Source: an uncultured Flavobacteriaceae bacterium
GTDB taxonomy: Bacteria > Bacteroidota > Bacteroidia > Flavobacteriales > Flavobacteriaceae
DNA length: 49,535 nt
Direction of reading: 5' to 3'
Assembly: GCA_937924845.1 (NCBI GenBank)
Contig: CALDUQ010000018.1
Span: 1 to 49,535, forward strand
The notes below the pieces were generated by a model. It was not told where the DNA came from. It saw only the letters and a list, made by a program, of their open reading frames with translations, and made no database searches. Positions 15,465 to 49,516 of this stretch are shown here, in pieces. Both the position numbers and the translations under genes were made by a program. Position 1 is the first letter of the stretch; every line of letters begins with the position of its first letter.

Positions 15465-16808
15465 TTAATTAAAAATAGCCTTATAAATATCGTTACCGTT
15501 AGCAAACAACACAAGTCCTATTAAAATAAAAAAGCCAGCCATTTGTGCGTATTCCATAAATTTATCGCCAGGTTTACGACCAGATATCATTTCATAAAGT
15601 AAAAACATGACATGACCACCATCTAAAGCAGGTATTGGTAATAAATTTAATACCCCAAGCATTAATGATAAAAAAGCAGTTAAACTCCAAAAATCTGCCC
15701 ACGACCATGAGGCTGGGAAAATATCATAAATAGCTTTAAAGCCACCAACACCTTTGTATGCACCTGTGCTTGGCGAAAATATTTTAGCCAATTGGCTAAA
15801 ATAACCTGTAATTTGTTTTTTAAACATGGTGCCTCCAACAGCAAAGCTTTCAAAAAAACCGTAGTCTTTACGGATGATGTCAAAATAGCCTAATTCGGCA
15901 AAACGAGGGTTGTGGCTACTTGGATAAATGCCCATTTTACCATCGCTATCAATTTTTAATGAACGTGTAATTTTTTCGTTTCCTCTTAAAAATTCAGCGG
16001 TCACTGTTTGGTTTTTGTATGTGTTAAGTACTGTGCCTAGTTGATCAAAGTATTTTACAGGTGAGCCATTTATAGATAAAAGAATATCTCCCTGTATAAT
16101 GTCTGCATCTTTGTTTTGAGATTCTTCTGCAATAGCAGCGGCCATAAATGGTATGCGGTAATTAAATAAACCAGAATCTCTGTTTGATGCCGATAGCTGT
16201 CCTAAAAAATCCGCAGGCAATGTAATAGTTTGTTGTTTGCCATCGCGCTCAATGGTATAATTTTCAGCTTCAATCAATTCGGTTCTTACATCAGAGTCTG
16301 TATAAACTTTCTTGTCGTTTACGGCAATGATTTTATCGCCAGTTTTAAATCCTAAATCTAGTAGTAATTCATTCTCAATCCAATAGCCATCTTTTAAGCT
16401 TTTAAGTGATACATCAGTATTACCGTAGCCAAAAGCCAAACACACATAAATAATGTAGGCTAAAATAAAGTTTACGGTAACTCCGCCAAGCATAATGATA
16501 AGCCGTTGCCAAGCTGGTTTTGACCTAAATTCCCACGGTTGTGGTGGTAAAGCCATTTGTTCTTTATCCATGCTTTCGTCAATCATTCCTGATATTTTAA
16601 CATAGCCGCCAAGTGGTAGCCAGCCAATACCATAAACGGTTTCGCCTATTTTCTTTTTAAAAAGTGAGAATTTTACATCAAAAAATAAATAAAATTTTTC
16701 GACACGGGTTTTAAATGCTTTTGCAGGTATAAAATGCCCTAATTCGTGTAAAACAATAAGTAATGATAAGCTTAATAGAAACTGAGAAATTTTAATAATA
16801 AACTCCAT
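15465..16808 (-). CDS. rseP: RIP metalloprotease RseP (site-2 protease)
   Basis: An intramembrane zinc metalloprotease that cleaves transmembrane anti-sigma factors and leftover signal peptides. The zinc site HELGH is at 21-25 in the first helix and the distal ligand motif LDGGH at 395-399. Two PDZ-like segments lie between (around 120-200 and 215-290). The 447-residue length is normal. ATG start. A TACTTTTG -7 box upstream suggests it is transcribed alone. Confidence 0.94.
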   Translation of the reverse strand: MEFIIKISQFLLSLSLLIVLHELGHFIPAKAFKTRVEKFYLFFDVKFSLFKKKIGETVYGIGWLPLGGYVKISGMIDESMDKEQMALPPQPWEFRSKPAWQRLIIMLGGVTVNFILAYIIYVCLAFGYGNTDVSLKSLKDGYWIENELLLDLGFKTGDKIIAVNDKKVYTDSDVRTELIEAENYTIERDGKQQTITLPADFLGQLSASNRDSGLFNYRIPFMAAAIAEESQNKDADIIQGDILLSINGSPVKYFDQLGTVLNTYKNQTVTAEFLRGNEKITRSLKIDSDGKMGIYPSSHNPRFAELGYFDIIRKDYGFFESFAVGGTMFKKQITGYFSQLAKIFSPSTGAYKGVGGFKAIYDIFPASWSWADFWSLTAFLSLMLGVLNLLPIPALDGGHVMFLLYEMISGRKPGDKFMEYAQMAGFFILIGLVLFANGNDIYKAIFN

Positions 16809-46601: not shown

Positions 46602-47570
46602 TTAGTTATTTTGAGCTTTAAAGGCTTTCAATTTTTCAATAAGTTGCGGTACTACCTCAAATGCATCGCCTACAATGCCATAGTCGGCTGCTTTAAAAAA
46701 TGGAGCTTCAGGATCTGTGTTAATCACAACTTTTACCTTTGAGGCATTTATGCCAGCTAAGTGTTGTATTGCACCCGATATGCCAATTGCAATATAAAGG
46801 TTTGAAGCAACTGGTTTTCCTGTTTGTCCAACGTGTTCGCTATGTGGGCGCCACCCTAAATCGGATACGGGTTTTGAGCAAGCCGTTGCAGCACCAAGCA
46901 CATCGGCAAGTTCTTCAATCATGCCCCAGTTTTCAGGCCCTTTTAGTCCGCGGCCTCCTGATACAACAATTTCTGCGTCAGCAATAGTTACTTTATCACT
47001 GGCGTTATCAACTGATTTAAGTATTACATTAAAATCAGAATCTTGAAAAGTGGGTGAAAATGTTTCTGTAACAGGGTTTGTTTTTGCTTCAACCAATCCA
47101 AATGCATTTTTTGAAAGTCCTAAAACTTTAATATTTGATGTAAGTTCATTAATAGCAAATGCTTTGTTAGTAAAGCTTGATGTTTTTATTGTAAATGGCG
47201 AAGTATTACTGGGTAACTCAACAACATTTGATACCATTGCAGCATCTAGTGCAATTGATGTCACTGGAGCTATATATTTACTGTTTAAGCTAGAGCTTAA
47301 TATTACTACTGTTGCGTTTTCGTGTTTGGCAGCTTGTGCTATTGCGCTTGCGTATGCTTTTGCGCTAAAGTTATTCAGTTTGTCGTTTTCGATGTTTAAT
47401 ATTTTATCAACACCGTAATTAGATAAGGTGTCGGTATTACTGGTATTAAAGGTTAAAGCTGTTACTGTAGTGCTTAATTGATTTGCAATTGCTTTTGCAT
47501 ATGAGGCAACTTCAAGAGCTGTTTTTTTGAAATTTCCTTGTTCTGATTCTGTATATACTAAAACTGACAT
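46602..47570 (-). CDS. etfA: Electron transfer flavoprotein subunit alpha
   Basis: The FAD-binding subunit that passes electrons from acyl-CoA dehydrogenases to the quinone pool. The C-terminal FAD domain is clear: SGGRGLKGPENWGMIEELA, AATACSKPVSDLGWRPHSEHVGQTGKPV, IAIGISGAIQHLAG and NTDPEAPFFKAADYGIVGD. 322 residues, normal. It lies 43 nt after etfB in the same operon. Confidence 0.95.
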   Translation of the reverse strand: MSVLVYTESEQGNFKKTALEVASYAKAIANQLSTTVTALTFNTSNTDTLSNYGVDKILNIENDKLNNFSAKAYASAIAQAAKHENATVVILSSSLNSKYIAPVTSIALDAAMVSNVVELPSNTSPFTIKTSSFTNKAFAINELTSNIKVLGLSKNAFGLVEAKTNPVTETFSPTFQDSDFNVILKSVDNASDKVTIADAEIVVSGGRGLKGPENWGMIEELADVLGAATACSKPVSDLGWRPHSEHVGQTGKPVASNLYIAIGISGAIQHLAGINASKVKVVINTDPEAPFFKAADYGIVGDAFEVVPQLIEKLKAFKAQNN

Positions 47571-47613: not shown

Positions 47614-48360
47614 TTATATAACCTTGGCTTCGTTGTGCAATAGGTTTACTAATTCGTCAATATTATCTGCGTTTACAAGTTTTACTGCGCTTTTTTCTGG
47701 AGGTTTTTCGTAAGCTTGTACTTTAGTGTTAGCGTTGGCTTCGATAGGCTCAAGTACTGTAAGTGGTTTTTTTCGAGCCATCATTATGCCTCTCATGTTA
47801 GGAATACGTAAGTCACTTTCTTCAACAAGACCTTTTTGACCGCCTATAATAACTGGTAAATTTGTTGTTACGGTTTCTTTACCACCATCAATTTCTCTGG
47901 TTGCAGTAGCATTTGTACCGTCAATTTCTAGGTTTATGCAAGTGTTAACAAAGTTAGCGCCTGTTAAGGCTGCAATCATGCCTGGCACCATACCGCCATT
48001 GTAATCTATAGATTCTCTACCTGCTATGACTAGGTCATAGTTTTCGGTAGTAATTACTTTTGCCAATTGTTTTGCAACGTAATTAGCATCTTTTGCTTCA
48101 GTATTTATTCTAATAGCCGCGTCGGCACCTATAGCTAAGGCTTTTCTAAGTGTGGGTTCGGTTTCTGTACCACCAACATTTATAACAGTAACGTTTGCAC
48201 CTTGTTTTTCTTTAAACCACATCGCTCTAGTTAGTCCAAATTCATCATTTGGGTTAATTACAAACTGCACGCCATTGGTGTCAAAAGTTTTGTTATCGTC
48301 TGTAAAATTAATTTTAGAAGTGGTATCTGGCACGTGACTTATGCACACTAATATTTTCAT
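47614..48360 (-). CDS. etfB: Electron transfer flavoprotein subunit beta
   Basis: The AMP-binding partner of EtfA. 248 residues beginning MKILVCISHVPDTTSKI, with FVINPNDEFGLTRAM, the AMP-site AGRESIDYNGGMVPGMIA and the recognition-loop region DLRIPNMRGIMMARKKPL that docks with acyl-CoA dehydrogenases. First gene of etfBA. Its promoter region contains a long perfect palindrome. Confidence 0.95.
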   Translation of the reverse strand: MKILVCISHVPDTTSKINFTDDNKTFDTNGVQFVINPNDEFGLTRAMWFKEKQGANVTVINVGGTETEPTLRKALAIGADAAIRINTEAKDANYVAKQLAKVITTENYDLVIAGRESIDYNGGMVPGMIAALTGANFVNTCINLEIDGTNATATREIDGGKETVTTNLPVIIGGQKGLVEESDLRIPNMRGIMMARKKPLTVLEPIEANANTKVQAYEKPPEKSAVKLVNADNIDELVNLLHNEAKVI

Positions 48361-48411: not shown

Positions 48412-48419
48412 CGAAGGTA
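48412..48419 (-). promoter_or_regulatory. Possible etfB promoter -7 box
   Basis: TACCTTCG on the minus strand, 7 of 8 to TAnnTTTG, 51 nt before the etfB ATG. The 24-bp palindrome lies 15 nt upstream, where the -33 element would be. Confidence 0.4.
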
Positions 48420-48434
48420 GGTAAAAATTGTCTA

Positions 48435-48458
48435 TTTTACTATGCATGCATAGTAAAA
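48435..48458. promoter_or_regulatory. 24-bp perfect palindrome (operator) between etfB and pdhB
   Basis: TTTTACTATGCA followed directly by its exact reverse complement, centred between 48446 and 48447, core ACTATGCATGCATAGT. It lies between divergent promoters and has no T-tract, so it is a protein-binding site rather than a terminator. The symmetry fits a dimeric regulator such as MarR, TetR or GntR type. Confidence 0.7.
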
Positions 48459-48487
48459 TTTTACATTAAAAATTATTTAATAATTAG

Positions 48488-48495
48488 TATTTTTG
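48488..48495 (+). promoter_or_regulatory. Predicted pdhB promoter -7 box
   Basis: TATTTTTG is a perfect match, 43 nt before the pdhB ATG. The palindrome ends 29 nt upstream, close to the -33 position. Confidence 0.5.
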
Positions 48496-48538: not shown

Positions 48539-49516
48539 ATGAAAACAATTCAGTTTAGAGAGGCTATAGCCGAGGCAATGAGTGAAGAAATGCGACGAGA
48601 TGAAAGCATTTATTTGATGGGTGAAGAAGTTGCTGAATATAATGGTGCATACAAGGCATCAAAAGGGATGTTGGATGAATTTGGAGCTAAGCGTGTTATT
48701 GATACCCCAATTGCCGAATTAGGTTTTTCAGGAATAGCAGTAGGGTCAACAATGACTGGTAATCGCCCAATTGTTGAGTATATGACATTTAATTTTTCAT
48801 TGGTTGGTATTGATCAAATTATAAATAATGCCGCTAAAATTAGACAAATGTCTGGAGGTCAATTTAAATGTCCAATCGTATTTAGAGGCCCAACAGCATC
48901 TGCTGGGCAATTAGCAGCAACACACTCTCAAGCTTTTGAAAGCTGGTTTGCAAATACCCCAGGATTAAAAGTTATTGTGCCATCAAACCCCTATGATGCA
49001 AAAGGTTTGTTAAAAGCAGCAATACGTGATGACGATCCAGTAATTTTTATGGAAAGTGAACAAATGTATGGTGATAAAGGTGAAGTTCCTGAGGGTGAAT
49101 ATATAGTTCCGATAGGTGTTGCTGATATTAAGCGTGCTGGAGATGATGTTACTATCGTTTCATTTGGTAAAATTATTAAGGAAGCTTATAAAGCTGCCGA
49201 TGAGTTAGAAAAAGAAGGAATTTCATGTGAAATTATTGATTTACGTACTGTAAGACCAATGGATCATGAGGCTATTTTAAACTCAGTTAAAAAAACTAAT
49301 CGCTTAGTTATTTTAGAAGAAGCATGGCCTTTTGGAAACGTAGCTACCGAAATTACATACCAAGTACAGGCAAATGCATTTGATTATTTAGATGCGCCAA
49401 TAATTAAAATTAATACAGCCGATACGCCTGCGCCGTTTTCGCCAAATTTACTTAAAGAGTGGTTGCCAAACAGTAATGACGTTGTAAAAGCCGTTAAAAA
49501 AGTAATGTATAAATAA
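48539..49516 (+). CDS. pdhB: Pyruvate dehydrogenase E1 component subunit beta
   Basis: The beta half of the thiamine-diphosphate E1 enzyme that decarboxylates pyruvate. 325 residues: MKTIQFREAIAEAMSEEM start, MGEEVAEYNGAYKASKGM, DTPIAELGFSGIAVGSTMTG (with the TPP-interacting Glu), HSQAFESWFANTPGLKV and DLRTVRPMDHEAI in the C-terminal domain. It could also act on branched 2-oxo acids, but the length and N-terminus fit PdhB. The alpha subunit gene is not beside it upstream; the window ends before the next gene. Confidence 0.93.
   Translation: MKTIQFREAIAEAMSEEMRRDESIYLMGEEVAEYNGAYKASKGMLDEFGAKRVIDTPIAELGFSGIAVGSTMTGNRPIVEYMTFNFSLVGIDQIINNAAKIRQMSGGQFKCPIVFRGPTASAGQLAATHSQAFESWFANTPGLKVIVPSNPYDAKGLLKAAIRDDDPVIFMESEQMYGDKGEVPEGEYIVPIGVADIKRAGDDVTIVSFGKIIKEAYKAADELEKEGISCEIIDLRTVRPMDHEAILNSVKKTNRLVILEEAWPFGNVATEITYQVQANAFDYLDAPIIKINTADTPAPFSPNLLKEWLPNSNDVVKAVKKVMYK

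Follow-up and report, generated by a model that had tools for sequence, protein, structure and literature searches.

We propose that the longest palindrome in the window—the whole stretch of 49,535 nucleotides analysed here, from an uncultured Flavobacteriaceae bacterium—is very probably the operator of a MarR repressor whose gene heads a beta-oxidation operon, with a dimer, a repressing action and an inducer taken together as one model. Its role as the operator of a MarR-type beta-oxidation regulator is well supported by what can be read from sequence, namely the site, its positions, its conservation, its loss with the regulator and a correlated change with the recognition helix; protein–DNA binding at the palindrome and the repressor sign are what we infer. 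Flavobacteria count among the major groups living in sea and soil. In the fish pathogen F. psychrophilum, genes for beta-oxidation are reported in PMC9723704 to rise strongly with mucus and plasma; the main text of that paper does not contain the word MarR. Among open-access titles and abstract openings we found no MarR or other regulator of fatty-acid degradation in Bacteroidota, and a search of the same open-access scope with the operator sequence returned unrelated papers only; this MarR-type beta-oxidation regulator is apparently undescribed so far. The protein would give a major phylum its regulator of fatty-acid degradation, and its 16-bp operator could be read in any genome to locate the regulator, its targets and candidate lipid-uptake genes.

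The palindrome is perfect over 26 bp (48434 to 48459, ATTTTACTATGCATGCATAGTAAAAT), is the longest in a palindrome scan of the window, and is entered here, from that scan and its conservation, as a predicted operator without strand. The first-pass annotation had described a 24-bp perfect palindrome between divergent etfB and pdhB; both points hold, as TTTTACTATGCATGCATAGTAAAA spans 48435 to 48458, one further complementary pair brings it to 26 bp, and the divergent arrangement is borne out by gene coordinates and by Pfam and NCBIfam matches. Inside it, genome search and site alignment define a 16-bp core, ACTATGCATGCATAGT (48439 to 48454, also without strand); the family consensus of this core is RYTATGCRYGCATARY, in which TATGC..GCATA hardly varies. 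A palindrome of 26 bp was reached in one of 100 order-2 Markov windows, where it was the longest seen, and the window holds a second perfect palindrome of 24 bp (15780 to 15803) within an M50-protease-like reading frame read as rseP, most likely there by chance; palindrome length by itself is thus suggestive only, and it is conservation that argues for an operator. The exact core is far from chance, since an independent-base model expects 0.0007 copies in 1.95 Mb and two were found.

On the minus strand, etfB (47614 to 48360; PF01012), the electron transfer flavoprotein beta subunit, has etfA, the alpha subunit, downstream of it (46602 to 47570, minus strand; PF00766 and PF01012), and on the other side of the palindrome pdhB (48539 to 49516, plus strand; NF008854 above its cut-off) is the pyruvate dehydrogenase E1 beta subunit. 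We regard etfB as most likely the direct target of the operator, and pdhB as probably a neighbour and not the main target. The flavobacterial -7 box consensus is given as TAnnTTTG in PMC9723704. The predicted -7 box of etfB, TACCTTCG (48412 to 48419, minus strand), has one mismatch to it and stands 20 bp past the core, a distance shared by most relatives; that of pdhB, TATTTTTG (48488 to 48495, plus strand), is a perfect match 34 bp after the core, and the outer edges of these two boxes are the bounds of the interval first singled out, 48412 to 48495. Given a spacer of 19 bp, etfB should have its -33 position inside the core (48439 to 48442, minus strand), where there is no clear TTTG; this agrees with the earlier placement of the palindrome across the etfB -33 region and upstream of its pdhB counterpart.

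The same geometry recurs across relatives, in counts that exclude six duplicate loci (L154, L155, L160, L164, L172 and L178). At etfB, a -7 box with no more than one mismatch begins 18–21 bp past the core in 47 of 56 loci (0–6 in eight control windows); at marR, an exact box starts 9–12 bp past the core in 28 of 54 loci (0 in eight control windows) and 90 bp past it in 22 more. The marR loci with the 90-bp offset that were inspected have a proximal second site, 83 bp from the first, that fills the gap. For pdhB, the exact box lies 53–56 bp from the core in 29 of 56 loci (55 bp in 24 of the 56) and 43–46 bp from it in 14. From these offsets, a bound dimer would block marR and etfB directly and would, in most species, leave the core promoter of pdhB uncovered, a geometry that fits repression of marR and etfB. 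Paired operators are seen in L037, L041, L043 and other Chryseobacterium-type loci: their spacing is 83 bp at 23 named loci and 28–29 bp at six others, and cooperative binding or looping is possible at such pairs.

The genome that carries the window (109 contigs totalling 1.95 Mb, completeness 87.8%) has one other exact core, at C53:11215-11230, placed 35 bp upstream of a 144-aa MarR-family gene (PF01047, 35.4 bits against a cut-off of 24.6). A long-chain acyl-CoA synthetase-like gene lies upstream of this marR, and the contig breaks off downstream within the first part of a 3-hydroxyacyl-CoA dehydrogenase; in two relatives with the operon on a single contig (L314 and L315, Pfam run on L314) the order is marR, 3-hydroxyacyl-CoA dehydrogenase/enoyl-CoA hydratase, thiolase and acyl-CoA dehydrogenase. 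A third site, ATTATGCATGCATAAT, differs by two symmetric changes and lies at G000:C13:4308-4323 (L003), upstream of a nitronate-monooxygenase/FabK-like gene. Operators upstream of such a gene are also found in L304, L311 and L376, with two sites 95 bp apart in L311. When three mismatches were allowed, the genome gave five sites against eight for the reversed control, so that three-mismatch matches such as C13:5095 and C44:9619 carry no meaning.

Further copies near fatty-acid genes and conservation in relatives, the two points on which the first-pass annotation had staked its reading, were both found. The exact 16-mer is present in 104 of 397 family genomes, with 0 for the reversed pattern among the matches listed. 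We collected 149 exact sites from family loci, the genome's own sites and at least 118 records from named genomes, and sorted them by neighbouring gene, with classes assigned by Pfam on representatives and passed to the remaining cluster members through BLAST clustering: 59 are upstream of marR and 61 upstream of etfB (120 of 149 together), and 55 of the etfB sites have pdhB on the opposite side. The rest comprise two sites at pdhB (other side lost at the locus end), four at large acyl-CoA dehydrogenases and 23 classed as other; the last include eight at acyl-CoA dehydrogenases, four at a short-chain dehydrogenase beside methylmalonyl-CoA mutase, three at acyl-CoA carboxylase and one at pyruvate carboxylase. 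Seven of the 149, some of them near locus ends, have no clear fatty-acid neighbour (L021, L023, L035, L059, L068, L079 and L099). Beta-oxidation genes follow these sites more often than other genes do, as expected of a fatty-acid degradation regulon.

A site-blind sample gave the same picture. Gene coordinates were used to extract the 400 bp upstream of etfB and marR in each of 40 family genomes, which had been hand-picked, not drawn at random, along a ranked list and from those also present in a second one; the two lists show the better-scoring entries among 193 and 189 matches. The core was present within three mismatches upstream of etfB in 38 of 40 genomes and upstream of marR in 39 of 40—the position expected of autoregulation—and shuffled palindromes came as close in six (etfB) and three (marR) of 2000 comparisons. 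The pattern TATGC-NN-GCATA (TATGCNNGCATA) was found upstream of etfB in 39 genomes and upstream of marR in all 40; variation is confined, one cell excepted, to core positions 1, 2, 8, 9, 15 and 16. One genome (G193) has a single change within TATGC..GCATA at etfB, and its marR site is also unusual at the ends. The centre dinucleotides of the etfB and marR sites agree within 27 of the 40 genomes where 20 are expected (P = 0.03), a weak agreement between the two sites of one genome.

The site is lost along with the regulator. The fadB-linked MarR was detected in 189 of 199 family genomes, and the ten others gave no match at E 0.01, save a partial match of 24% in G095. Nine of these ten retain etfB, and in eight of the nine the site is absent upstream of it, the best match having 6–7 mismatches; two of the eight still keep etfB opposite pdhB. 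The pattern YTATGCRYGCATAR occurs nowhere in the genome in eight of the ten, compared with 40 such sites, and two for the reversed pattern, in ten genomes including the window's own. Since fadB is retained in five of the eight site-less genomes, site loss does not stem merely from loss of the pathway. For the site at etfB with and without MarR (39/40 versus 1/9), Fisher's test gives P = 1.8e-7 among genomes that are related; four of the MarR-less genomes share a divergent fadB type and are not independent, so there are fewer independent losses than counted. The exceptions are G138, in which MarR was not found and which keeps three sites, one of them at etfB, and G015, which keeps two; both are probably assembly gaps, as G138 has no fadB match and the fadB of G015 is cut near a contig end.

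Outside the family, 46 genomes of a phylum sample of 247 had the MarR at E 1e-12, and we took up 19 of these proteins that belong to other families within the order and class. In sixteen, fadB comes next, and each of these carries the site upstream (13 as exact TATGCNNGCATA, three with one mismatch); of the three without fadB as the next gene, two have no site upstream and one shows a lone weak word with one mismatch. In families f7–f9 the recognition helix has RSLTR in place of TSLSR or TSLTR. In nine of nine cases of this arginine type, the main site has G next to TATGC on one side or both; the 40 family genomes, with 81 sites, never show G in that position, nor do the sites of f2 and f3, and the weak secondary sites found in three arginine-type f8 genomes carry T, not G. 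A threonine-to-arginine change paired with a flanking G is the kind of change that would be expected if the MarR reads this DNA, and it may reflect only one or two events.

The first-pass annotation had gone further than an operator, suggesting that one regulator switches between fatty-acid and pyruvate use; the fatty-acid half is upheld by conservation and neighbours, while the pyruvate half is not, since the site follows etfB. In such a two-way switch the same dimer would repress etfBA and activate or repress pdhB. The divergent placement of the two genes around a common site in most relatives favours it, as does a Tenacibaculum site upstream of pyruvate carboxylase (L061), and the preferred distances of the pdhB -7 box from the core are compatible with upstream action; however, that fixed spacing could simply stem from a short conserved intergenic region, and the 34 bp found in the window is unlike most species. 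We consider the switch unlikely given the genomes in which the two genes are separated, where the site stays with etfB: in G156 they lie about 4.5 kb apart, with the site 67 bp from etfB and none within 1.5 kb on either side of the lone pdhB, and in G005 and G197, where another gene stands between them, the site keeps to the etfB side. From upstream, it may still act on pdhB to a minor extent.

It is harder still to credit a different transcription factor that binds the site with marR merely among its targets. First-look counts do give several MarR-like candidates per genome, but the site is lost together with the fadB-linked MarR, the recognition helix and the operator change together, and the site stands at this protein's own gene across the class and is absent at MarR homologues unlinked to fadB. 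We give almost no weight to an RNA hairpin, a terminator, a restriction or methylation site, or a chance sequence, even though the palindrome is self-complementary, AT-rich windows sometimes yield long palindromes, and the palindrome contains what we take to be NsiI- and SphI-type words. A terminator scan of the palindrome was negative, and the palindrome lies upstream of the predicted start sites and so would be untranscribed at etfB; hairpin and terminator were rejected. Chance can give 24 bp in a coding gene, but not gene-specific conservation or a fixed position relative to -7 boxes.

The MarR reading draws further support from the protein. An AlphaFold monomer model of a relative's MarR (L048, from our alignment A1 of 32 members; mean pLDDT 91) matches MarR-family structures, with SlyA bound to DNA (3q5f, TM 0.84) the best among the matches listed and MepR bound to DNA at TM 0.82. 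Two hallmarks of the family are present, the winged-helix domain (by PF01047 and by fold) and a short inverted-repeat site overlapping promoter elements. The SlyA/MepR/OhrR-type repressors have this fold in common with the fadB-linked MarR; their targets and signals are different. Pfam matches are solely to the MarR-type winged helix, with no GntR or TetR DNA-binding domain found, and no named NCBIfam MarR subfamily model reached its cut-off among the matches listed, so that membership in other named subfamilies was rejected.

Among known systems the closest working analogy is CouR together with FerC. CouR of Rhodococcus jostii is a MarR-family repressor of a CoA-thioester catabolic operon that is released by p-coumaroyl-CoA (PMC4737184), FerC is likewise a MarR repressor that a CoA thioester releases (PMC5487221), and in both systems one inverted repeat overlaps the -35 boxes of divergent promoters (PMC4737184, PMC5487221). 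The fadB-linked MarR is alike in family, in its CoA-thioester catabolic operon and in a single inverted repeat at divergent promoters; unlike it, CouR and FerC serve aromatic substrates in another phylum, and the sequence relation to CouR (chain 5cyv) is remote, at a profile E of 8e-08. FadR (GntR) and PsrA and FadP (TetR) control the fatty-acid degradation regulons of Proteobacteria (PMC5343134), a role like the one proposed here but in other protein families. FabT of Streptococcus is a MarR-family regulator of fatty-acid metabolism with acyl-ACP as co-repressor (PMC5487221); it controls synthesis, whereas the fadB-linked MarR is placed at degradation genes. The NCBIfam FabT model matches 18 of the 32 alignment members at E <= 0.001, and identity with FabT was rejected at 22 bits (first member) against a cut-off of 200.

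In the model that we favour, a MarR dimer would read the two TATGC half-sites; at 48439 to 48454 it would cover the -33 region of etfB and keep etfBA off, and upstream of marR, directly before the -7 box, it would keep the fad operon off. Fatty acids entering the cell would be activated to acyl-CoA, and a CoA thioester or fatty acid would release the dimer, upon which the beta-oxidation enzymes and their electron acceptor ETF would rise together. The inducer is probably acyl-CoA, judging from the CouR/FerC analogy and the regulon content, and pdhB is probably affected little or not at all. More tentatively, the MarR could be an acyl-CoA-sensing master repressor of fatty-acid catabolism that predates the split of the Bacteroidia families examined and holds a place like that of FadR, PsrA and FadP, over a regulon reaching from uptake to carboxylation. 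If so, the regulon would span uptake (through a glmS-linked TonB-dependent receptor with the site in five genomes), acyl-CoA dehydrogenases, ETF, thioesterase, KAS-III-like and nitronate-monooxygenase-like enzymes, and propionyl-CoA and pyruvate carboxylation, and the site could be used to find lipid-uptake genes of marine and soil Bacteroidota.

Two further settings of the operator were observed in relatives. In five family genomes (L278, site position 1501; L283, 1501; L310, 2463; L313, 2518; L375, 1501) it stands between glmS-like and TonB-dependent receptor genes; the two receptors tested, L283 and L313, have CarboxypepD_reg_2 and Plug domains, and the receptor is a candidate for fatty-acid or lipid uptake. 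Elsewhere, sites lie near 3-oxoacyl-ACP-synthase-III-like genes and 4HBT-type thioesterases (L309, L374, L378; L296; L287, L312).
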